Shown: positions 820 to 21,523 of the stretch, piece after piece
Position numbering within the stretch: position 1 is the stretch's first letter
Layout: the number at the start of each line of letters is the position of its first letter
IMG/VR virus record: IMGVR_UViG_3300009184_000247
Span: 1-21,708 of that record
From: a virus
DNA: 21,708 nt
Direction: 5' to 3' (one strand)
Program-made: the position numbers and the translations under genes
Notes under the pieces: generated by a model
The model's database searches: none
What the model was told of the DNA's origin: nothing
What the model saw: the letters and a program-made list of their open reading frames with translations, nothing else

Positions 820-1536
820 ATGGCGATTTATACAGCCAACGATCAAATTAACGGCGCATTACGCGTATTAGGTATTTTGGCTGAAGGTGAAACGCCTTCC
901 GCTGCTACTTCTCAAGACGCTTTGACTGCGCTCAATCAAATGATTGATTCGTGGAATACCGAGCGTCTATCTGTATTTAATACGCAAGATCAGACTTATC
1001 TATGGACACCCGGTTTAAAGACCCAAACGCTTGGGCCTAGCGGTGACTTTGTAGGTAATCGTCCAATTATGATTGACGACTCTACTTATTTCCGTGACCC
1101 TGCTAATGGTATTTCATTTGGTATCAAACTAATTAATCAACAGCAATATGATGGTATTGCGGTTAAAACAGTGACCTCCACTTATCCACAGGTTATGTGG
1201 ATTAACATGGAATACCCAAATATCACTATGACCATCTATCCTGTACCTACTAAGGTATTGGAATGGCATTTTATTTCTGTAGACGAGCTAATGAGTGTTC
1301 CTAGTTTATCTACCAATATTTTGATGCCTCCTGGCTATTTACGTGCTTTCAAGTACAACTTGGCGTGTGAAATTGCCAATGAATTCGGTATTGAGCCACC
1401 ACCTAATGTAGCCCGTATTGCGATGACTTCTAAGCGCAATCTTAAGCGTATTAATAACCCTGACGACATTATGTCTTTGCCTTACAGCATTGTTGGCACT
1501 CGTCAGCGCTTTAACATTTTTGCTGGTAATTATTAA
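820..1536 (+). CDS. P22 gp4-like tail accessory / head completion protein
   Basis: A 238-aa protein matching the P22 tail accessory factor (gp4) family in length and layout. The N-terminal part (about residues 5-50) reads INGALRVLGI, then ALTALNQMIDSWNTERL, the usual helical start. The middle carries the TMTIYPVP strand (136-143), and the C-terminal third (NILMPPGYLRAFKYNLACEIANEFG, 166-190) is the typical helix. In P22 this protein extends the portal ring and helps close the head after packaging. The start is supported by AGGGA upstream. The stop overlaps the next start (TAATG), so it is coupled to the gp10-like gene as in P22-type clusters. Confidence 0.88.
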   Translation: MAIYTANDQINGALRVLGILAEGETPSAATSQDALTALNQMIDSWNTERLSVFNTQDQTYLWTPGLKTQTLGPSGDFVGNRPIMIDDSTYFRDPANGISFGIKLINQQQYDGIAVKTVTSTYPQVMWINMEYPNITMTIYPVPTKVLEWHFISVDELMSVPSLSTNILMPPGYLRAFKYNLACEIANEFGIEPPPNVARIAMTSKRNLKRINNPDDIMSLPYSIVGTRQRFNIFAGNY

Positions 1537-2975
1537 TGCTAACGCCGATTTTAGGGCAAGCGTACGTTGCTCGTAGCGTTAACGCTGCGGATAACCGTAT
1601 GATTAACCTATTTCCAGAAGCCACGCCTGAAGGTGGCTACACAGGGGGTTTTCTTAATCGTACGCCCGGCTTGCGATTACTTACTACGGTTGGTACTGGC
1701 CCTATTCGTGGGCTTTGGACGCATTTAACTAATGGTGAAGATGCTTATGTAGCGTCTGGCAATGAGTTTTATAAGATTTTGCCTGACTTTACTGCTACTA
1801 AATTAGGTAATATTAGCGGTACAGGCCCAGTATCTATTGCTGACAATGGTACGCAACTATTCATTGCTTGCGGCGCCGATGCGTACGTTTACACCGAAAC
1901 AACTAATACTTTTGTTCAAATTACTGATCCTGACTTTTATGGGGCGGAAACAGTCTGTTACATTGATGGTTACTTTTGCTTTAACCAACCAGGCACACAA
2001 ATTCTTTGGGTTACAGGCATTTTTGATGGCACATCAATTGACCCATTAGCGTTTGCGGCTGCTGAAAGTACACCGGATAATGTGGTAGCCGTAGTATCAA
2101 ACAATCGTGAAGTATGGGTATTTGGTACAGGCACAACTGAAGTTTGGTATGACGCAGCCACAACACCGTTTCCATTAGCGCCAATTCAAGGCGCGTATAA
2201 CGAGATCGGTTGTATTGCCAAATCGTCTATTGCGAAATTAGATAACAGCTTGTTTTGGCTTGGCGCTGATCCACGGGGCTATGGCATCGTTTATCGCAAC
2301 CAAGGTTACACAGGCAAACGCATTTCTACCCATGCCATTGAGTTCGCTATTCAAAGCTATGGCGATGTTTCTGACGCTGTTGCTTACACTTATCAGCAAG
2401 AAGGTCATGCGTTCTATGTGTTAGCGTTTCCGACTGCTGGCAAGACTTGGGCGTATGACGTATCTACAGGTGCTTGGCATGAACGTGCAGGTTGGGACAA
2501 CGGTGCATTTACCCGCCATCGCGCCCAATGCCAAATGAGTTTTGATAGCGAAACTATTGTTGGTGACTATGAGAATGGCAACTTATACGCATTTGACTTA
2601 GAACTATACGAAGATAATGGCGTTATTCAGAAGTGGTTACGTTCATGGCGTCCTATTCCTGAAAATCAAAACACTACTATGCGTACGGCTCAACATGGCT
2701 TGCAATTGCTTTGCGAGTCAGGCCCAGGACTTAATTTAGGTCAAGGTAGCGACCCTGAAGCAATGCTTCGTTGGTCTGATGATGGCGGCCATACGTGGTC
2801 TAACGAACATTGGACAAAAATGGGTAAGATTGGTCAATATGGTTTCCGTGCCTTTTGGCGTCGTCTTGGCATGACGCTTAAGTTGCGTGATCGTGTCTAT
2901 GAAGTGTCTGGTACTGACCCTGTAAAAATCGTTATTACAGGCGCTAATTTAATAGTAACGCCGACTAGCAGATAA
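1536..2975 (+). CDS. P22 gp10-like packaged DNA stabilisation / tail hub protein
   Basis: A 479-aa protein of the P22 gp10 (Phage_stabilise) type. It opens with LGQAYVARSVNAADNRMINLFPE (6-28), the family signature region, then shows repeated beta-propeller-like blades with G-x-W and Y-x-Y patterns, and ends with a beta-rich C-terminus. In P22, gp10 forms the hub that joins the gp4 ring to tailspikes and needle and keeps DNA in the head. Length matches the P22 protein. TAATG overlaps at both ends tie it to the neighbours, indicating tight co-translation of the tail genes. Confidence 0.9.
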   Translation: MLTPILGQAYVARSVNAADNRMINLFPEATPEGGYTGGFLNRTPGLRLLTTVGTGPIRGLWTHLTNGEDAYVASGNEFYKILPDFTATKLGNISGTGPVSIADNGTQLFIACGADAYVYTETTNTFVQITDPDFYGAETVCYIDGYFCFNQPGTQILWVTGIFDGTSIDPLAFAAAESTPDNVVAVVSNNREVWVFGTGTTEVWYDAATTPFPLAPIQGAYNEIGCIAKSSIAKLDNSLFWLGADPRGYGIVYRNQGYTGKRISTHAIEFAIQSYGDVSDAVAYTYQQEGHAFYVLAFPTAGKTWAYDVSTGAWHERAGWDNGAFTRHRAQCQMSFDSETIVGDYENGNLYAFDLELYEDNGVIQKWLRSWRPIPENQNTTMRTAQHGLQLLCESGPGLNLGQGSDPEAMLRWSDDGGHTWSNEHWTKMGKIGQYGFRAFWRRLGMTLKLRDRVYEVSGTDPVKIVITGANLIVTPTSR

Positions 2976-3622
2976 TGGCAAATCCAGATATTACTAAAAT
3001 CCCTGCGCCTAGGACACCGTTTCTAGACCCAGAAACAAACGATATTACGCCTGCTTGGTATCGTTTCCTATACAACCTATTTATTTTTACCGGCAGCGGT
3101 GGGGACGGCGGTCTTGCTGTTAACCGTGGTGGTACAGGTCAAACAAGCTATACCAATGGGCAATTGCTGATTGGTAACAGCTTAGGGAATACCCTTAGCA
3201 AAAATACATTAACACCAGGTACTGGTATTGGCGTTACCAATGGTAATGGCACAATTGCTATTGCTAACACAGGCGTTACTTCGGTAACTGCGGGCGCGGG
3301 TGTATCAGTCAGCGCGGCTACAGGCGCAGTAACCATAGCCAATACAGGCGTTACTTCTTTTAGTGGTGGGACTACAGGATTAGCTCCATCTAGCGCAACA
3401 ACTGGGGCTGTAGTGCTTTCAGGTACTTTAGCTTTAGCTAATGGTGGCACAGGCGCAACTACTGCCGCAGGAGCTAGAACTAATCTAGGTTTAGGTACGA
3501 TGGCTACGCAAAACGTAGGTATTACTGCTACGATTACAACTGCTAAATTAACCGCTTTAGGCGCTAATGGCAGTATGACTTTTGTTAATGGCATCTTAAC
3601 TGCACAAACGCAAGCTACGTAA
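2975..3622 (+). CDS. Gly/Thr-rich tail fibre or needle-like protein
   Basis: A 215-aa protein. Residues 1-40 (PAPRTPFLDPE, then ITPAWYRFLYNLF) form a compact conserved-looking head that probably docks on the tail. Residues 48-215 are low-complexity beta repeats: GGTGQTSYTNGQLL (52-65), two copies of an IANTGVTS phrase (96-103, 121-128) and GGTGATTAAGARTNLGLGTMATQ (157-179), a phrase common in trimeric phage fibres. It follows the gp10-like gene, where P22 has its needle gene, so it is a needle or fibre candidate. It is short for a receptor-binding fibre and has no obvious enzymatic tip. TAATG junctions occur on both sides. Confidence 0.8.
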   Translation: MANPDITKIPAPRTPFLDPETNDITPAWYRFLYNLFIFTGSGGDGGLAVNRGGTGQTSYTNGQLLIGNSLGNTLSKNTLTPGTGIGVTNGNGTIAIANTGVTSVTAGAGVSVSAATGAVTIANTGVTSFSGGTTGLAPSSATTGAVVLSGTLALANGGTGATTAAGARTNLGLGTMATQNVGITATITTAKLTALGANGSMTFVNGILTAQTQAT

Positions 3623-4455
3623 TGACCCAATTAACCGCTATCACCGAACAAAAGATTCAGGTTTTAGAAGCTGAATTTTTAAAACAACCACAGGCAGACT
3701 GCCCCGTGGTGCATCGGTTTGGCCCAAGCATTTATATCCGTGAAGTAACAATCCCCGCTGATACATTCTCAATTGGTCATCGTCAAACTACAACGCACCT
3801 AAATATCATGCTTGCTGGGCGCGTAACAATGGTTAACGAGGATGGCTCACATACTGAGCTAGTAGCGCCTCAGACGTTTGTGGCAGGCCCAGGGCGTAAG
3901 ATTGGTTATATCCATGAAACGATGATTTGGCAAAACGTCTACGCAACAGACGAAACCGACATAGAAAAGCTAGAAACGATGTTTTTAGATAAAAGCGCTA
4001 CTTGGCAAGAGAATCAAAAAAATCAACAGTTATTGCTGTCTTTTGATCATTCTAAAGATATTGCAGATTATTACGCGGCAATTGCTGAATACGGCTTTGA
4101 CCAAGAAACAGTACAAGCGCAAGTACAGAATTTAGATGACCAAATTGATATGCCGTATGGTAACTACAAGATGATGGTATCTCCTTCAAATATTGAAGGC
4201 AAAGGCGTTTTTGCCACAGGAAACATTGAAGCAGGCGAAGTGATTGCGCCTGCTAGAATTGCTGGTAAACGTACGCCAGCAGGAAGATTTACAAATCATG
4301 CAAAAAATCCCAACGCCAAGATGATTTTGTTAGATAATGGTGATGTAAACTTGGTAGCAGTTGTGCCTATCGTCGGTTGTAAAGGCGGTAATTTGGGTGA
4401 AGAAATCACAATTGATTACCGTCAGGCGTTGAGCCTAGCAATAAGGAGAAATTAA
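3622..4455 (+). CDS. Cupin-SET domain fusion protein
   Basis: A 277-aa two-domain protein. Residues about 30-110 form a cupin-like barrel (GHRQTTTHLNIMLAGRVTM, 52-70, with His53 and His59 as possible metal ligands, and a second motif around GYIHETMIW, 95-103), a type seen in phage tail-region proteins. Residues about 181-267 carry SET-domain signatures: IEGKGVFATGNIEAGEVI (191-208), RFTNHAKNPNA (222-232, the NH motif that shapes the S-adenosylmethionine site) and GEEITIDYR (259-267, with the catalytic-type Tyr266). SET proteins methylate lysines, so a lysine methyltransferase acting on a virion or host protein is plausible but unproven. It lies between fibre-like and ejection-protein genes in the virion operon. 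Confidence 0.82.
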   Translation: MTQLTAITEQKIQVLEAEFLKQPQADCPVVHRFGPSIYIREVTIPADTFSIGHRQTTTHLNIMLAGRVTMVNEDGSHTELVAPQTFVAGPGRKIGYIHETMIWQNVYATDETDIEKLETMFLDKSATWQENQKNQQLLLSFDHSKDIADYYAAIAEYGFDQETVQAQVQNLDDQIDMPYGNYKMMVSPSNIEGKGVFATGNIEAGEVIAPARIAGKRTPAGRFTNHAKNPNAKMILLDNGDVNLVAVVPIVGCKGGNLGEEITIDYRQALSLAIRRN

Positions 4456-4456
4456 T

Positions 4457-5215
4457 ATGTCTGGAGTCGCAACAGCCATCGTAGGAGGCGCCGTAATTGG
4501 CGGCGTTTTATCGTCCCAAGCTTCTAAAAGCGCTGCACAAACACAAGCCGATGCAGCCAATCAAGCTACCGCAGCGCAACAACAAGCGCTAGATCGACAA
4601 TTAGCTTTACAACAACCGTTTACAACTGCGGGTACAACCGCCGTAAATCAATTGTCTGCTATGACTCAACCTGGTGGCGTAGCCACACAAGACTTTACTT
4701 TTGGCCCCGGCGCGTATCAAGCTGACCCTGGCTATGCTTTTAGACTTAAAGAAGGCATGAACGCCATGAACGCTACTGCGGCTGCCCGTGGTGGTTTGAT
4801 CTCTGGTAACGCTCTTAGAGCAGGTCAAGCATTTGGACAAGAATTAGGTTCGCAAGAATATAGCAACGCATTTAACCGCGCACAAAATATGTTTCAAATG
4901 AATCGTAATAACTTGTTAGACCCATTGAAATTTTTAACTAACATCGGTCAAGCAGGCGCAAGTAATCAAGCAGCCAATGTAGGCTCTTTTGGTAGTTCAC
5001 AAGCTGCTAACATTACTGGTGCAGGTAATGCTACTGCCGCAGGTCAAGTTGGCGCGGCTAATGCCTATACCAACGCTATTGGTCAAGGTATTGGCGGGTA
5101 TCAAATGAATCAATTGATCAACCGTTCTGCGTATAATCAACCAACTAGCTACTATGGTGGATATGGCTCTGGTACAGAAGGCTCTAGTAACTTTATTGGC
5201 CCAGTTCAAAGTTAA
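4457..5215 (+). CDS. DNA ejection / internal virion protein (P22 gp7 position)
   Basis: A 252-aa protein with a Gly/Ala-rich hydrophobic N-terminus (VATAIVGGAVIGGVLSS, 4-20), then an Ala/Gln-rich helical part (21-60), a conserved-looking DPGYAFRLKEGMNAMNATAAARGGLISGNALR stretch (key DPGYAFRLKEG at 91-101 and ARGGLISG at 109-116) and a Gly/Asn/Gln-rich tail. This is the usual look of phage DNA-transfer proteins that leave the head with the DNA. The strong AAGGAG site lies 7 nt before the ATG. Position after the fibre-like and cupin-SET genes and before two more ejection-type genes matches the gp7-gp20-gp16 order of P22. Confidence 0.8.
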   Translation: MSGVATAIVGGAVIGGVLSSQASKSAAQTQADAANQATAAQQQALDRQLALQQPFTTAGTTAVNQLSAMTQPGGVATQDFTFGPGAYQADPGYAFRLKEGMNAMNATAAARGGLISGNALRAGQAFGQELGSQEYSNAFNRAQNMFQMNRNNLLDPLKFLTNIGQAGASNQAANVGSFGSSQAANITGAGNATAAGQVGAANAYTNAIGQGIGGYQMNQLINRSAYNQPTSYYGGYGSGTEGSSNFIGPVQS

Positions 5216-5224
5216 GGAATAAAT

Positions 5225-6388
5225 ATGCCAATTGATCCAAATATCCCCCTTCAAGTTAAACCTTTTAACATTGATTTACCTGTTAATCAGTTAGCTGCGG
5301 TTGGTGAAGCCATGAAAATTGGCGAGATGAACCGCGGTATTGAAGAACAAAATCGTTTAAATGAATACCTTAGAAGTGCTGACCTAACTAAACCTGAAGC
5401 ACGTTCTGAATTAATTAAATACGGTAAAACAGGTTTGGCGTATGGTAAAGCGCTTGGTGAACAAGAAAAGCTTGGCCTAGAAGCTAAAAAGCTTGGTTTA
5501 GACGCTAAAGCTAAACAATTAGATATTCAACGTGAACAGTTTGGTAATCTAGTATTTAACCCATCTAATGAGAACGTAACTGCTCATTTGCAAGATAGCG
5601 TATTAAAAGGCGAGCTTCCACAAGCACAAGCGCAAGCATTACTTCAACAAGTAATGCCAATGAACGCGGCGCAACGTAAGCAATTCTTTACCGATATGGG
5701 TATGAAAGTCCAAGAACGCGCTCAACTAGAAACTACACGCCGTGGTCAAGACATTTCTGCAACTACAACTATGCGTGGTCAAGATATTTCTGCGTCCACC
5801 ACACGCCGTGGTCAAGATATGCAATACGCCCCGGACGTTGTAGCCAATACTCTTACTGACGCGGCAGGTAACGTGACCCAATTTAATCGCTTTGGTGAAG
5901 TTATTGGCAAACCAGGTCAAGTTGGTAAACCAAGCGCTACATTTGAAAAGACTGCTGCGTTGCAAAAACAACAAAGTAAAGACCTTGGTTTGGCTATTAC
6001 TGAACTTGAACGCGTCACTAAAGATGGCGGTTTGATTGACCAATCTACTGGTAGCGGCGCTGGTCGTGCAATTGATATTGGCGTTGGAATTATTGGTAAA
6101 GCCACACCAGGCGCAATTGCTATTGCTAAATTGAAACCGATTGCTGATATGGCGCTTAAGATGGTACCGCGCTTTGAAGGCCCACAGTCTGATAAAGATA
6201 CTGCGTCTTACAAAGAAGCGGCAGGTCAATTGGCAGACGCATCCTTACCAAACGAAATTCGTAAAGAAGCTGGTAAAGAAGTATTGCGTTTAATGAAGGC
6301 TCGTAAAGGTCAGTTTGTTAATGAAGTAATGGCAAACGAAGGAATGAGCGCTGGTGGTGTAGATACAAGCAATCCTTTACTTAAGTAA
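5225..6388 (+). CDS. Internal virion / ejection-type protein with RGQD repeats (P22 gp20 position)
   Basis: A 387-aa soluble protein. Residues 25-105 are charged helical sequence likely to form coiled coils. Residues 170-202 hold three 11-residue repeats around RGQD (173-176, 184-187, 195-198). Residues 240-370 form a distinct C-terminal domain with ITELERVTKDGGLIDQSTGSG (258-278), LKPIADMALKMVPRFEGPQSDKDT (303-326) and VLRLMKARKGQF (353-364), a module I associate with phage internal proteins. The gene is 9 bp after the previous ejection gene and starts behind AAGGA. It probably travels in the head and takes part in DNA delivery, but the biochemical role is unknown. Confidence 0.78.
   Translation: MPIDPNIPLQVKPFNIDLPVNQLAAVGEAMKIGEMNRGIEEQNRLNEYLRSADLTKPEARSELIKYGKTGLAYGKALGEQEKLGLEAKKLGLDAKAKQLDIQREQFGNLVFNPSNENVTAHLQDSVLKGELPQAQAQALLQQVMPMNAAQRKQFFTDMGMKVQERAQLETTRRGQDISATTTMRGQDISASTTRRGQDMQYAPDVVANTLTDAAGNVTQFNRFGEVIGKPGQVGKPSATFEKTAALQKQQSKDLGLAITELERVTKDGGLIDQSTGSGAGRAIDIGVGIIGKATPGAIAIAKLKPIADMALKMVPRFEGPQSDKDTASYKEAAGQLADASLPNEIRKEAGKEVLRLMKARKGQFVNEVMANEGMSAGGVDTSNPLLK
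5732..5830 (+). repeat. Three in-frame 33-bp tandem repeats
   Basis: Three 33-bp units encode TTRRGQDISAT, TTMRGQDISAS and TTRRGQDMQYA. They differ at a few codon positions, so they are not an assembly artefact of identical copies, and sit between the helical N-part and the C-terminal domain of the ejection-type protein. An 11-residue period fits a helical coiled-coil or solenoid linker. Confidence 0.85.
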
Positions 6389-6401
6389 TTAGGAACCTAA
6401 T

Positions 6402-8378
6402 ATGGCAGGCTTACAAGACATCCTTTCGGATCCAAATTACGTTAATGCTAATCCTGCTACAAAAGCAGCTATTTTTGACAAATTTGCGCCTTTAGATCCT
6501 AATTTTGCTAACGCTAACCTTGAAACGCAAAGTGCTATCCGCGCTAAATTTGGTCTATCAGCGCCCGTAGCTGCTGAACCTGAAACCCGCGCTAATGTTG
6601 GTGCTGAATTACCAGCGTTTGCTAAAACTAGTCCTAACTTGTACGCTGGTTTAGTAAAAACCCGTCAAATGCTTGGCCCAACTGCCGAAATGCTTGGTGG
6701 TGTTGCTGGTGGTGTGCTTGGCGCTGGTGCTGGTGCTATTGCTTCACCAACTGTAGTTATTAACCCTGTAACAGGCGGTGTGGCTGGTTCAGCCCTTGGA
6801 TATGCTACTGCTAAAGAATTGCTTAACAAAGCTGACGTAGCTCTTGGATTGGCTAAACCTGAAACAGGTGGTCAAGCTATGAACCGTGCGGTAGGCAACG
6901 TAGCTGAAGGCGCTGCTTTTGAAGTTGGCGGTCAAGTAGCTGGCAAAGCTATTAATAAGTTAGTAGACGCTGGCACAGCCGTCATGGGTAAAGTTGCTGA
7001 CATTAACCAGTTACCTAAGCAATTGGCAGCTAAGATTGCTCGTAAATCATTTGAAACACCCGAAAACGTCGCTGCTGGGCGTAATGCGCTACAAGAAGCT
7101 ATTAAAGCTGGTGATAACGTAACTGCTCAACAAGCCCTTGCACAAGGTAAAGTTGTAGCCCCAGGCGCTCAAGCAGTGCTTCAAAAAACTATTTCTAGAA
7201 CATCGCCTGCCGTACAAGAATCTAAAGCTTTGGCTGATGAAGCTGCGCGTATGTCTACTATCAAAGAAATAACACCGGATCTTAACGCGGCTGTTGTTGC
7301 GCGTAGAGATGCGTCTAAGCCATTCTACGAAGCGGCGGATAAAGCAATTGTGCCGCTAGATAAAGACGTATCTGCTGTATTAGCTCGTATGCCAGAAGGC
7401 ACTTTGGCTGCGGCGGCTAATATTGCTAAGATGGAAGGCCGTCCTTTTGTCATGGGTCAAAAAACGGCTGGGCAAATGATGGAAATGCCAGGTCAATTCG
7501 ACCAATTTGGCAAACCAATCATGGTTCCTGTAGAAAGCAAACTACCACAATTAACTGGTGAGTCTATGCACTACATTAGACGTGCTTTATCTGACGTTGC
7601 TTATGGCCCTACTGCATCTACAGGCGCAGGTCGTGATACACAAATGGCTGCGCGTACGTTATTAGACGACTACATCAAGGTATTTGAAACTAAAGTACCT
7701 GAATATAAAGAAGCTAGAACTATATTCTCTGATTTATCTGCGCCAGTTAACCAAGCGCAAGTGCTTAAAGAAATGGCGTCTGTGTTGGAGAAGCCAGGCG
7801 GCGGTGAGCGTATTGGCCCATTCCTTAATGTATTAGGCCGCGGCGAAACTGCTATGCTTAAACGTGCTGGCGGTAAAGGTGCGCCTCGCTATGAATCTTT
7901 GGCTGAAGTATTGACGCCTGAGCAGTTGCAAACAGTTCGCGGTGTAGCAGATCAATTGGCTACGGATGCGTCTGTTGGTAAACAAATTTCTGCTGGTCAA
8001 CAATTAGCAACTAAATTGCTTAAAGACGAATTGCCAAACTATCGTTTGCCTAACATTTTTAACGTCATTGCTACTACAGCCAATAAGATGCTTGACGTAT
8101 TAGGTCTTAAAGTTGGTGAAAAAACTATCAAAGAAATTGCCAAAGCTGGCGAAAGCGCTAAATCTTTTGACGAATTGCTTGCATTGTTACCTGGACAAGA
8201 CCGCGTTAAAGTTCTAAAAGCTATAAGCGATCCTGATACTTGGGCTAAAATCAACACCGTAGCTAAGAACCCTGCGGTTGGAAAAGCCCTTATGGGTGTT
8301 TCAGCAGAAGTACCTGAAATGCCTGCAAATGCTTTAGCACCCCAGCAATCACAAAACGTAAATGCACTTGCGAGGTAA
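6402..8378 (+). CDS. Large internal virion / ejection protein (P22 gp16 position)
   Basis: A 658-aa protein and the longest virion gene in this part. The N-terminus carries two 20-residue repeats beginning DPNYVNANPATKAAI (10-24) and DPNFANANLETQSAI (32-46). Residues 94-135 are a Gly/Ala-rich zipper-like hydrophobic region (GGVAGGVLGAGAGAIA) that could insert in or cross a membrane. The rest is long alpha-helical sequence rich in Ala, Lys and Glu. Its size, membrane-active region and place as the third ejection-type gene, just before lysis, match the gp16 role in P22, which helps DNA cross the host membrane. No peptidoglycan hydrolase motif was recognised. Confidence 0.8.
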   Translation: MAGLQDILSDPNYVNANPATKAAIFDKFAPLDPNFANANLETQSAIRAKFGLSAPVAAEPETRANVGAELPAFAKTSPNLYAGLVKTRQMLGPTAEMLGGVAGGVLGAGAGAIASPTVVINPVTGGVAGSALGYATAKELLNKADVALGLAKPETGGQAMNRAVGNVAEGAAFEVGGQVAGKAINKLVDAGTAVMGKVADINQLPKQLAAKIARKSFETPENVAAGRNALQEAIKAGDNVTAQQALAQGKVVAPGAQAVLQKTISRTSPAVQESKALADEAARMSTIKEITPDLNAAVVARRDASKPFYEAADKAIVPLDKDVSAVLARMPEGTLAAAANIAKMEGRPFVMGQKTAGQMMEMPGQFDQFGKPIMVPVESKLPQLTGESMHYIRRALSDVAYGPTASTGAGRDTQMAARTLLDDYIKVFETKVPEYKEARTIFSDLSAPVNQAQVLKEMASVLEKPGGGERIGPFLNVLGRGETAMLKRAGGKGAPRYESLAEVLTPEQLQTVRGVADQLATDASVGKQISAGQQLATKLLKDELPNYRLPNIFNVIATTANKMLDVLGLKVGEKTIKEIAKAGESAKSFDELLALLPGQDRVKVLKAISDPDTWAKINTVAKNPAVGKALMGVSAEVPEMPANALAPQQSQNVNALAR

Positions 8379-9692: not shown

Positions 9693-10670
9693 ATGCAAAT
9701 ATCTAAAAAAGAAGATAAAAAGTTTATAGAGTGCTGGAAACGATTAGGCTCTCCTACGCTAGTTGCTAAAGAGCTAGGTATAAACCCTAGAAGCGCTCTT
9801 AATAGACGGGCTACGCTACAAATACGCTACGGGATAACTTTAGATACGCATAGTTCTATGCGTGATCCAAAAAAAGAAAAAAAGAAAATAGATTTAGCAG
9901 CGCACAATGTCCGTAGGGGTATTGATGTTGATAAGGTCAAACGCGTCATAGTGTTCTCAGACGCCCATTTTACTGATACCACCACCACGGCGTTTAAAGC
10001 CCTCTTGGTGATGATTAAAGAGTTTAAGCCACAGGTGATCATCTGCAACGGCGACGCCTTCGATGGGCAGGTTTTAAGCCGTTTCCCAAGCATTAACTAC
10101 GATCAGAAGCCTAGTGTCTTAGACGAACTTAACGCCTGCCGTTATCATTTAGATGAAATTGAAAAAGTAAGACCTGCTGGTTGCCGATTAATATGGACAC
10201 TAGGTAACCACGATATGCGCTACGAGGCTTGGTTGGTTAATAAAGTGCCTGAGTACAGCGGCGTAGATGGTTTTAGCCTTAAATACCATTTTCCTAATTG
10301 GGAAACTTGTTGGAGTTTTTGGATTGGCGAAGATACGGTAATCAAGCATCGGCATAAAGGCGGTCGTTCTGCTGGGTATAGTAATTTGATAGCCGCAGGC
10401 AATACCAACATTATTACAGGTCATACGCACGTTCTCGCTTGCCAACCGATTTCAAATTATCAAGGTCACTGGTGGGGGGTTCAGACCGGATGTTTGGCTG
10501 ATCCTATGTCACCTACGTTTGAGTATTGCGAAGATGGCCCAAAAGACTGGCGTAGCGGGTTTGTAATGCTTTCGTTTGACCAGGGCAGGATGTTAATGCC
10601 AGAGATGATTATGGTCAGCGACGAGCAAAATGGTGAATTTGAGTTTAGAGGTTGTATAAACAACGTATAA
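9693..10670 (+). CDS. Calcineurin-like metallophosphoesterase with N-terminal HTH-like region
   Basis: A 325-aa protein. Residues 8-50 look like a helix-turn-helix of terminase-small-subunit or recombinase type (GSPTLVAKELGINPRSALNRRATL). Residues 83-270 form a metallophosphoesterase domain with the full ligand set: DAH (D90, H92), GDAFDG (D121), GNHD (N172, H173, D174), KHRH (H219/H221) and GHTH (H244, H246). Such enzymes hydrolyse phosphodiesters or phosphomonoesters using two metal ions; the substrate here is not known. The N-terminal HTH suggests DNA contact, which would favour a nucleic-acid substrate, but that is inference. It follows the endolysin after 51 bp and overlaps no gene upstream. 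Confidence 0.88.
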   Translation: MQISKKEDKKFIECWKRLGSPTLVAKELGINPRSALNRRATLQIRYGITLDTHSSMRDPKKEKKKIDLAAHNVRRGIDVDKVKRVIVFSDAHFTDTTTTAFKALLVMIKEFKPQVIICNGDAFDGQVLSRFPSINYDQKPSVLDELNACRYHLDEIEKVRPAGCRLIWTLGNHDMRYEAWLVNKVPEYSGVDGFSLKYHFPNWETCWSFWIGEDTVIKHRHKGGRSAGYSNLIAAGNTNIITGHTHVLACQPISNYQGHWWGVQTGCLADPMSPTFEYCEDGPKDWRSGFVMLSFDQGRMLMPEMIMVSDEQNGEFEFRGCINNV

Positions 10671-10672
10671 AC

Positions 10673-11026
10673 ATGAAGCTAACCTCAGAGGTTGTCAAAA
10701 ACCTATACGCTTCTCTGTATTGCTGCTATCCATTTACTAAGTGGAAGATGCCACTACCTGAAGAAATTGATTTTGTAGTTACATCTGACCCGGAGCTAAT
10801 GGGAACCTACCTATACGATACGGGCGAGGACTTTGAGCATACCATTACCATTTCATCTGGACGGTGCGGGCATTATTACACCGTTGTCACCACACTAGCT
10901 CACGAAATGATCCACATGAGTTTTCATCGCCAAGAAGGAGCTAAATGGGCGCAGCATGGCAAACCATTTAGAAACCGCTGCAAAATGGTGGCTGATGAAT
11001 TAGGGCTTGATCCGCTAGAATTATAG
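10673..11026 (+). CDS. SprT-like zinc metalloprotease
   Basis: A 117-aa protein with the zincin motif HEMIH (His77, Glu78, His81 counted from this ATG) followed by HGKPFRNRC (third ligand candidate His95), the layout of SprT/Spartan-type proteases. Host Spartan proteins remove proteins crosslinked to DNA; the phage role is unknown. I chose ATG 10673, 2 bp after the phosphoesterase stop. An in-frame TTG at 10652 would add seven residues, but its only purine-rich site (AGAGG, 10646-10650) ends one base before it, too close to serve. The chosen ATG also lacks a close Shine-Dalgarno, so coupling to the upstream gene is likely. This is the last plus-strand gene before the repeat-rich spacer. Confidence 0.85.
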   Translation: MKLTSEVVKNLYASLYCCYPFTKWKMPLPEEIDFVVTSDPELMGTYLYDTGEDFEHTITISSGRCGHYYTVVTTLAHEMIHMSFHRQEGAKWAQHGKPFRNRCKMVADELGLDPLEL

Positions 11027-18916: not shown

Positions 18917-21220
18917 ATGAACTTTTTAGAATATATCACAGGATTAGCACCCGAAGGTGAAACTGCTTTAATTGTTAGACAAAAGCCACAATTAGACGGC
19001 AACGGGCAATTTCAAACTCATGCTGATGGCACAATTAAATGCACTTGGCCTGCGTTCTTGCCTACTGCTAAGATCAAGAAAGATTGGGCAATCTACGGCA
19101 ATACAGGCTCGTTTATCCTTGACCGCTTTGCCGACGGCAAGATGTCTGCGTCTGCCGCCAACTGCGAATACGTCCTTGTAATGATGTTAGATGACATTGG
19201 CACTAAGTCCAAAGAACCACCTCTTGCACCTACATGGATTATGGAAACTTCGGAAGGATCATATCAATGGGGTTATGCATTTAAAGAACAACCAACCAAG
19301 GGTGACTTTACTGCAGCAATCAAAGCGATTGCCAAGGCAGGCTATACAGATCCAGGCGCAACTAATGCCGTTCGGAATTTCCGTCTGCCAGGATCAATTA
19401 ATCTTAAGCCAGGGCGCAATAACTTTGTATCAACATTGATACAATTTAATCCTGAACTTGAATACAATTTAGAAGATATTTGCATTGCACTTGATGTTGT
19501 GCCAGATGTTGCTGATACGGCTACAAATGTTGCCATAAGATTAGCTGATACTGGCAAAGATTCAGTTGTTACATGGCTTAACGATCAAGGACTAATCATG
19601 TCTGGCGTTAATGGTGAGGGTTGGATGGGCATCGTCTGTCCTAATAACGCGGAGCATACTGATGGCAACATTGAAGGGCGCTACAAGCCCCTTGATCGTT
19701 CATTCTGCTGTCTGCATGGTCATTGCGTGGACTTTAGTTCACAAATGTTTTTGGATTGGGTAGCCGATAATGGTGGCCCTGAAGTTGATCACGGCTTGCG
19801 TGATGAGTTACTAGCAGAGAAGATGAATACGGCCCTGTCAAAATTGACACCAAATGAAGTTTATAGAGATACGGCAGCCGAATTGATTGCTGAAGTAGAG
19901 CGTAAAGAGCTTGGTCGTATTGAGAAGGCCGATTGGTACAACCGCTTTGCTTATATCCAAGATGATGAATCCTATTTTGATATGCAAGATAGACGCGAAG
20001 TTAGTCGCCAGACGTTCAACGCATTGTTCCGTCATATCCCCTGCAAGAGTATTCATACTGGCCGTAAGGTAGAGGCATCAATCTGCTTTGATGAGAACAG
20101 ACAAGCCAATGGTGCTAAGGCGCTTGTTGGTGTGACTTATGCTGCTGGTGAAGATGTGATTGTTACGCGTGATGGTGATTTATTCGGTAATCGCTGGCGT
20201 GACGCTAGACCTGATCTATCCGGTGCAAACAACGGCGACATTTCTCTGTGGATGAATCATTGCCAAGAGCTAGTGCCTGAACAAGCCGAGCTAGATCATA
20301 TTCTTGATGTGATGGCGTTTAAGGTGCAGCACCCTAAGATCAAAGTAAATCATGCAATCCTTCACGCGGGCGATGAGGGTAGCGGTAAAGATACATTTTG
20401 GGCGCCATTCATTTGGGCCGTCTGTGGTGACCATCTAAAGAATCGCGGCATCATGGATAACAATTCAGTCAATAGCCAATGGGGTTATCAGTTAGAGTCC
20501 GAGATTTTGATCATCAACGAATTAAAAGAGCCTGACGCTGCAACGCGTAGACAATTAGCGAATCAGCTAAAGCCAATTATTGCTGCGCCTCCTGAGATGT
20601 TGCCTATTAATCGCAAGGGCCTGCATCCCTATCACATGGCTAATCGCCTGTTCGTTTTGGCGTTTAGTAATGACCCTGTGCCTATTAGCCTGGCGTCACA
20701 AGATCGCCGTTGGTTCTGTGTGTGGTCTACCGCACCAAGAATGAATAGTGATCAAGCTAAAAAGATTTGGGATTGGTATAGATCGGGAGGGTTTGCCTGC
20801 ATAGCAAAATGGCTTATGGCTAGAGATGTATCTAAATTTAATCCTAGCGCAGCACCCGCAACGACTGAGTTTAAACAGAATTTAATTGAGCATGGCATGA
20901 GTATGGCTGAGTCTTATTTGGTTGATATGTTGCGTGAGCGCAAAGGTGAGTTTGTCAAAGGTGTGATTGGTTCGCCATTTCATAGCCTGTGTGATCGCTT
21001 AGCAGGGTTGGCCCCGTCTGGTGTTAAGGTGCCACAGGCTGCATTACTACACGCTCTTAAAGAGGCGGGTTGGATTGATTGTGGTCGTTTAGCGTCCCAC
21101 GATTACCCAAGTAAAAAGCATATCTTTGCTGCGCCTGATGTTTATGAAACCTTTAAAAAATCAGAGCTTCGCCGTGCAGTAGAAGAAAATCCGCAGCCTC
21201 AGCTTGTGCGTGTGAAATAA
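18917..21220 (+). CDS. Bifunctional primase-helicase (AEP-like primase plus SF3-type helicase)
   Basis: A 767-aa protein. Residues 45-190 look like an archaeo-eukaryotic-type primase (VLVMMLDDIG with D92/D93, then GYAFKEQPT, then NFRLPGSINLKPGR at 154-167). A Cys/His site follows (CPNNAEH at 241-247 and CCLHGHC at 264-270), common in phage primase-helicases. Residues 470-620 hold a DUF5906/SF3 ATPase: Walker A GDEGSGKD (485-492, Lys491), Walker B ILIINEL (530-536, Glu535), sensor FSN (583-585) and DRRWF (596-600). It would unwind DNA and make primers for the family A polymerase. GAAAGGT lies 7 nt before the ATG. Confidence 0.9.
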   Translation: MNFLEYITGLAPEGETALIVRQKPQLDGNGQFQTHADGTIKCTWPAFLPTAKIKKDWAIYGNTGSFILDRFADGKMSASAANCEYVLVMMLDDIGTKSKEPPLAPTWIMETSEGSYQWGYAFKEQPTKGDFTAAIKAIAKAGYTDPGATNAVRNFRLPGSINLKPGRNNFVSTLIQFNPELEYNLEDICIALDVVPDVADTATNVAIRLADTGKDSVVTWLNDQGLIMSGVNGEGWMGIVCPNNAEHTDGNIEGRYKPLDRSFCCLHGHCVDFSSQMFLDWVADNGGPEVDHGLRDELLAEKMNTALSKLTPNEVYRDTAAELIAEVERKELGRIEKADWYNRFAYIQDDESYFDMQDRREVSRQTFNALFRHIPCKSIHTGRKVEASICFDENRQANGAKALVGVTYAAGEDVIVTRDGDLFGNRWRDARPDLSGANNGDISLWMNHCQELVPEQAELDHILDVMAFKVQHPKIKVNHAILHAGDEGSGKDTFWAPFIWAVCGDHLKNRGIMDNNSVNSQWGYQLESEILIINELKEPDAATRRQLANQLKPIIAAPPEMLPINRKGLHPYHMANRLFVLAFSNDPVPISLASQDRRWFCVWSTAPRMNSDQAKKIWDWYRSGGFACIAKWLMARDVSKFNPSAAPATTEFKQNLIEHGMSMAESYLVDMLRERKGEFVKGVIGSPFHSLCDRLAGLAPSGVKVPQAALLHALKEAGWIDCGRLASHDYPSKKHIFAAPDVYETFKKSELRRAVEENPQPQLVRVK

Positions 21221-21222
21221 GA

Positions 21223-21261
21223 GAGCGTTTGCCTGCAAAAAACGGGAGCGTTTGCCTGCAA
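21223..21261 (+). repeat. 16-bp direct repeat just after the primase-helicase stop
   Basis: GAGCGTTTGCCTGCAA occurs at 21223-21238 and 21246-21261, identical, with a 23-bp period. It begins 2 bases after the stop codon and precedes the GC-rich island. It contains the small dyad TTGCCTGCAA. Confidence 0.85.
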
Positions 21262-21282
21262 GAATTAAAACAAACTGGTAAT

Positions 21283-21430
21283 GGGCGGGTCATACGCGCA
21301 GGCGCGCGCGTACGCGGGCGGGCGCATGGGCGCGCAGGCGCGCGCGTAGGCCAGGGCGGGCAGGCAGGCGCGGCGGCGGCAGGGCGCCCAGAATGGCGCA
21401 GGGCGGGCGATTGTGGCCGAGGTAATACAT
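21283..21430. other. Very GC-rich, G-skewed non-coding island
   Basis: I count 99 G/C in the 120 bases 21301-21420 (about 82%), against a genome in the 40s. The plus strand is richer in G than C. GGGCGGG occurs at 21283, 21316, 21354 and 21401, and again at 21544 in the terminator. Long alternating purine-pyrimidine runs occur (21291-21300, 21302-21316, 21338-21348). The only open frame has a TTG start and a Gly/Arg/Ala low-complexity product, so I treat it as non-coding. It lies between convergent operons. Confidence 0.85.
21295..21348. repeat. 18-bp direct repeat in the GC-rich island
   Basis: CGCGCAGGCGCGCGCGTA occurs at 21295-21312 and 21331-21348, identical, with a 36-bp period. Both copies contain alternating GC runs prone to left-handed DNA and can form short hairpins. 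Confidence 0.85.
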
Positions 21431-21452
21431 AGGCAGCAGCGCAGGCGATCGC

Positions 21453-21480
21453 AGCGCCTAGGGCGCTTTAAATTGTTTTA
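21453..21480 (+). terminator. Probable terminator of the replication operon
   Basis: AGCGCC (21453-21458), loop TAG, GGCGCT (21462-21467) is a perfect 6-bp stem followed by TTAAATTGTTTT. The T tract is interrupted, so it is weaker than the one at 163-186, but it is the first such site after the primase-helicase. Confidence 0.5.
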
Positions 21481-21523
21481 CAGTTTGCCAGGCGCAGCAG
21501 CCGCCCGCCAATAAATAGGCAAT

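Follow-up and report, generated by a model that had tools for sequence, protein, structure and literature searches.

SET enzymes are best known from chromatin, and their motifs bind S-adenosylmethionine (SAM) and place a catalytic tyrosine. The SET protein-lysine methyltransferases (PF00856), such as the minimal PBCV-1 vSET (PDB 3kma/1n3j), MLL1 and EZH2, share their fold with one half of the phage protein analyzed here, and GxG, R[FY]xNH..PN and GEExTxDY motifs are common to both. The phage SET differs from these enzymes in being about 21 residues shorter at the position of the I-SET insert, in having no post-SET, in carrying a KRTxxGR segment and, usually, a GCxGG insert, and in its fusion to a cupin within a phage virion operon.

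The same two-domain protein is found in PHROG 34170, a family which carries no function and which is exemplified by Rhodoferax phage P26218 gp30 and by Pseudoalteromonas phage PH1. The protein under study is 53% identical to the former and 32% to the PH1 protein, and both it (2.9e-95) and the PH1 protein (2.9e-155) match the family over their full length. The SET domain of this family is already annotated in databases: GenBank entry UOF81456.1, one such protein, is named after the PBCV-1 methyltransferase structure, and BFVD lists A0A6J5PTS6 as a SET-domain protein. In the open literature we found no paper describing a phage cupin-SET fusion, and one paper mentions only a SET-domain ORF in a Stenotrophomonas phage. 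What is new here is the architecture and the context of a SET-domain protein, as well as its reduced form.

On the cupin side, the closest described proteins are those of PHROGs 12032 and 24280, annotated "short tail fiber" and "tail fiber adhesin", from Vibrio podoviruses, DSL-LC05 and BPP-1 (Bbp23). Their cupin is homologous to that of the fusion and, like the fusion, they are encoded directly upstream of a pore-like ejection gene, but they have no SET and are only about 140-190 aa long. P22 gene 14 (DUF2824) and T7 gene 13 are found at the equivalent position, immediately before the pore-type ejection gene, and belong to other Pfam families: P22 gp14 matches DUF2824 and phrog_651, neither of which is matched by the protein under study.

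Gene order and domain structure

The window, i.e. the whole stretch of DNA that was analyzed, corresponds to positions 1-21,708 (21,708 nt) of IMG/VR virus record IMGVR_UViG_3300009184_000247, and includes the following features:

820..1536, + strand: P22 gp4-like head-tail adaptor (phrog_12985, 2.8e-46; phrog_637, 2.8e-9)
1536..2975, + strand: P22 gp10-like head-closure / packaged-DNA stabilisation gene (phrog_578, 1.8e-126)
2975..3622, + strand: upstream tail-fibre-like gene (phrog_31660, tail fiber protein, 1.5e-16)
3620..3624, + strand: TAATG, in which the fibre-like gene stops and cupin-SET starts, as read in the sequence; not conserved in relatives
3622..4455, + strand: cupin-SET fusion ORF, 277 aa plus stop (PHROG 34170 over residues 5-271, 2.9e-95)
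4457..5215, + strand: downstream DNA ejection protein of the P22 gp7 family, beginning MSGVATAIVGGAVIGG (phrog_598, "DNA ejection", 2.9e-29)
5225..8378, + strand: two larger genes that correspond by position to the ejection-protein genes 20 and 16 of P22; the first has a weak PHROG virion match

This order (gp4-like, gp10-like, fibre-like, cupin-SET, gp7-like, then two larger genes) is of the P22 type and, along with the virion PHROG matches of the neighbours, bears out the virion operon which an earlier note on this DNA had proposed. The source is a short-tailed phage, in which the cupin-SET gene adjoins the DNA-injection genes. A protein 100% identical to the one in the window is present in a 42,750-base IMG/VR contig (L002), and at least 80 IMG/VR loci with a cupin-SET were found among the matches listed. 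Further along the window, downstream of the lysis genes, a metallophosphoesterase gene (PF00149) is followed by an ORF with a zinc-protease-like HEMIHMSFH motif (9693-11026), and a GC-rich low-complexity stretch lies near the window end (21290-21480; 57.6% GC in 21001-21500 vs about 44% elsewhere).

The fusion gene had been described in the earlier note as a 277-aa ORF at 3622-4455 joining a cupin barrel to a SET-like domain, with NH at residues 225-226 (nt 4294-4299) and GEEITIDYR at 259-267 (nt 4396-4422); ORF and motifs are exactly as claimed, and both domain calls held. An AlphaFold2 model, built on a 33-member alignment, is confident (mean pLDDT 89.6, pTM 0.85), and three regions can be recognized in the protein:

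3706..3942, + strand: cupin (RmlC-type) barrel, residues 29-107 (AlphaFold2 strands; Foldseek to solved cupins; PHROGs 12032 and 24280)
3961..4125, + strand: helical linker, residues 114-168 (helices in the AlphaFold2 model), inside the most variable region
4159..4422, + strand: short SET domain, residues 180-267 (PF00856; Foldseek to vSET, MLL1 and EZH2; hhalign)

For the cupin half, whose strands run in the model from residue 29 to 107, Foldseek against the PDB retrieves the RmlC-type cupins 3lag, 2fqp, 8awp and 5bxx with a probability of 1.00 or nearly, and PHROGs 12032 and 24280 match at 6.3e-31 and 2.5e-24. For the SET half, structure prediction and profile search, the checks suggested in the earlier note, both returned SET. 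PF00856 is the sole curated family above its cut-off in the window protein (26.8 bits vs a gathering cut-off of 22.4), and is matched in 33/33 diverse homologues (E<=0.01). Foldseek retrieves EZH2, MLL1 and vSET, again with a probability of 1.00 or nearly, and hhalign against six stand-alone SET proteins from bacterial and archaeal contigs gives a probability of 99.5% (E 1.2e-22, 43% identity over 77 columns), the match taking in both NH..PN and GEEITIDY.

Cupins with and without SET

The survey of phages for the same fusion, also suggested in the earlier note, which had overlooked its breadth, revealed a widespread family, represented by 95 distinct homologues, rather than a one-off. In Vibrio phages the slot of the fusion gene is taken by a cupin that has no SET, as it is in DSL-LC05, a phage that shares 63% identity with the window in its gp10; in BPP-1 the cupin without SET, Bbp23, is instead located between terminase and portal. 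The change can be seen at close range in L186, which has the SET, and in L187 and L188, which do not, their cupin DNA being 87-89% identical (89% for L186 vs L188). The SET is thus not essential, being absent from such close relatives. L186 and L187/L188 are a natural comparison pair for SET function. A tree of the cupins, which has few columns, requires three changes between presence and absence of SET, and well-supported branches make at least two of these unavoidable.

A separate SET gene was sought in 27 cupin-only records and none was found. When DNA was scanned for the SET motif alone, at least 61 SET ORFs were obtained; among the matches listed, 59 have the cupin in the same frame, and the two remaining are a contig-edge fragment and a frame-split copy. 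The short SET type thus seems, to judge from the matches listed, to exist only with the cupin, while the cupin exists without SET. In L046 / L380 (IMGVR_UViG_3300001605_000221) the two halves of the fusion are in different frames, reflecting either a sequencing error or a decaying gene. A reversed order, SET then cupin in one frame, was found at L389:4184-5290, where the stop codon and the start codon of a pore-like ejection gene share the letters ATGA.

The cupin had been proposed to be the docking or metal-binding half of the protein. A docking role fits, since the cupin is kept in every relative and at every location. Metal binding is not consistently supported: of the candidate ligands, H53 and H59 are kept in 85/95 and 89/95 homologues, the third, H98, in only 58/95.

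A reduced and conserved SET domain

Conservation was evaluated on the 95 distinct full-length cupin-SET homologues, and the relevant elements of the SET half are the following:

4198..4206, + strand: GxG motif (G193-K-G195), aligned to GRG of MLL1; G193 in 94/95, G195 in 95/95
4246..4287, + strand: APARIAGKRTPAGR (residues 209-222), a short segment in place of the I-SET insert; R217, T218 and R222 invariant
4294..4299, + strand: N225-H226; N in 95/95, H in 94/95, with a single H to Q, in L092
4375..4389, + strand: GCKGG insert (residues 252-256) preceding the last motif; the Pseudoalteromonas PH1-like clade lacks it
4396..4419, + strand: GEEITIDY (residues 259-266), with the expected catalytic tyrosine Y266; E261, T263 and Y266 each in 95/95

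We take GxG to be the SAM side of the SET fold, and N225-H226 to be the SAM-pocket motif of SET enzymes. Fusion and motifs are not due to chance: 95 distinct homologues keep the motifs. Loss of the SAM site in close homologues, which the earlier note would have held against a SET enzyme, did not occur, these residues being kept in 94-95 of the 95 proteins. Cupin and SET do not differ in mean column entropy (1.21 each), which reaches 1.82 over residues 122-178; dN/dS of the SET half, 0.06-0.23 over 13 pairs, indicates purifying selection.

This SET is nevertheless not of the canonical lysine-methyltransferase form, which has both an I-SET insert and a post-SET. The spacing from GxG to [YF]xNH is exactly 27 residues in 95/95 proteins, and in 58/58 further ones, vs 48 counted in the stand-alone SET of L098; the resulting deficit of about 21 residues at the I-SET position, overlooked in the earlier note, is visible as a gap in the hhalign alignment. 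In its place lies a family-specific segment, APAR..KRTxxGR, to which the GCxGG insert is added outside the PH1-like clade. A post-SET is lacking as well, since the chain of the window protein ends about 10 residues past the DY motif. In known SET enzymes I-SET (a helix and a two-stranded sheet) and post-SET form the peptide groove (PMC2797608); with both absent, the substrate must be held differently, and we infer that the cupin may take over this task.

As the docking platforms of known SET enzymes are absent, the SET might also be folded but inactive, i.e. a binding or structural module, without methyl transfer, of a virion protein such as a short tail fibre or adhesin. The missing groove, the annotation of the cupin relatives as short tail fibres or adhesins, and the dispensability of SET in close relatives would all suit such a module, but N225, H226, E261, Y266 and GxG are kept together family-wide, even in the PH1 protein with its identity of only about 32%, and structure alone would not require this. 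This co-conservation of catalytic motifs argues against a purely structural role, which we regard as unlikely. Such a conservation pattern would be expected of an active site that is maintained for SAM binding and carries a tyrosine, and catalytic activity of the SET half appears, from sequence and model, reasonably probable.

Linkage to the ejection pore gene and proposed function

At all fusion loci (91/91) and all cupin-only loci (55/55) with room for it, the next gene, a long ORF, starts between -28 and +2 bp from the stop, and in nearly all of them encodes a hydrophobic, Gly/Ala-rich N-terminus such as MSGVATAIVGGAVIGG. The same kind of next gene, starting at -16 to +24, follows 53 of 54 further fusion ORFs, the exception being L370. 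An N-terminus of this type is also encoded directly downstream in zth2-2, although the gene is placed there between terminase and portal. The general coupling is therefore to the downstream ejection gene and not to the upstream fibre, a point which the earlier note had overlooked. Being the same with or without SET, the linkage assigns the cupin, and SET only by association, to the ejection module. An LCQE-like C-terminal tail recurs in these proteins (L084:8715-8780, L178:6790-6860, L058:1740-1800); it was considered as a conserved feature and discarded, as it results from the end of the gene running into the Shine-Dalgarno and start codon of the one that follows.

The P22 gp7 family has been equated in a review with T7 gp14, which is ejected first, forms a pore in the outer membrane, and is water-insoluble alone, being solubilised by gp15 in the core (PMC8954989). 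A protein of this class would be a plausible client for a docking partner. In the partner proteins of fusion phages no conserved lysine column above 51% was found, which argues against one fixed target lysine there. In the cupin-only set two partner lysine columns exceed 90%, but one close group makes up the bulk of this set, which is therefore not comparable.

The slot itself was considered as a general site for protein-modifying enzymes, with a GNAT acetyltransferase in P22 gp14 and T7 gp13 and SET here. This idea was set aside, as the acetyltransferase likeness could not be demonstrated: sequence searches for it with P22 gp14 and T7 gp13 gave non-significant or unrelated matches only, and the predicted model of P22 gp14 has a pLDDT of 41. 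A GNAT (PF00583) is present in only 1 of 27 cupin-only records, BPP-1 included, and in 3 of 34 fusion records. In Bordetella phage BPP-1 (bbp24-bbp23, L357:7480-8399) and in zth2-2 (L085:7935-9584), where the cupin or cupin-SET gene is located between terminase and portal, its neighbour is a GNAT gene. Because of these two cases the idea stays a lead, and together with the P22 gp14/T7 gp13 slot they are hints of protein-modifying enzymes linked to ejection proteins. In the paper on the BPP-1 head, only the two most abundant virion proteins were identified.

Our preferred reading, which sequence and model support tentatively, is that the fusion protein is a cupin-docked, SAM-dependent protein-lysine methyltransferase acting in ejection-protein assembly. 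It would be a two-domain accessory protein of the ejection-protein module, with the cupin as the constant docking or assembly part and SET as a minimal SAM-dependent protein-lysine methyltransferase. With neither I-SET nor post-SET present, it is probably the cupin, or else a folded partner complex, that brings the substrate into place, instead of its being bound as a free peptide. The likeliest substrate would be a co-assembled phage protein, the first candidate being the co-expressed gp7-like pore protein encoded directly downstream, and the effect of methylation might be to adjust the ejectosome in its solubility, packaging or insertion into the membrane. A phage protein as target has, in our judgement, about an even chance, and the pore protein in particular is a somewhat unlikely one. 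Points against this reading are the H226Q change in one homologue (L092), the dispensability of SET and the missing docking platforms.

The main rivals are the non-catalytic SET module discussed above and an enzyme ejected with the pilot proteins, which would act early in infection by methylating a protein of the host envelope, transcription or defence. The location of the gene inside the ejection operon, and the behaviour of SET as a variable accessory enzyme absent from some close relatives, would fit a host interaction; no host target is suggested by any result, however, and the fixed architecture and spacing in distant clades fit a conserved phage target better, which makes a host target quite unlikely. 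Methylation of the upstream fibre or needle, or of another tail protein, with a change in adsorption, was suggested by the TAATG overlap with the fibre-like gene and by the name, short tail fibre, of the cupin family. The coupling claimed in the earlier note is real in the window, at 3620-3624, but not general: TAATG was found at only 27 of the fusion loci examined, and the upstream neighbour is inconstant, several loci having kilobases of other DNA between the fibre-like match and the fusion gene, so that this target is improbable. Finally, SAF and SET have related topologies, and a misassigned C-terminal half with SAF or some other beta-clip fold, which the earlier note would have counted as a refutation, is itself already refuted as far as sequence and model allow, there being no Pfam match to SAF or another beta-clip in the window protein (E<=1) or in 33 homologues (E<=0.01), where SET is instead found throughout, and Foldseek and hhalign returning SETs.

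The intact motifs, the missing substrate platform, the constant cupin and the tie to the pore gene point to post-translational modification in phage assembly or infection, and suggest chemical modification, by some phages, of a protein belonging either to their own infection machinery or to the host. The stronger statement, that a widespread group of podoviruses methylates lysines of its own ejection machinery by a cupin-guided SET without I-SET or post-SET, is one we hold as rather doubtful; if true, a phage protein-methylation step would be part of how the DNA-ejection apparatus is built or fired, and SET enzymes would have a new means of substrate selection. The minimal SET would also show what the fold needs for catalysis, and the question can be tested directly in two isolates, Rhodoferax phage P26218 and Pseudoalteromonas phage PH1.
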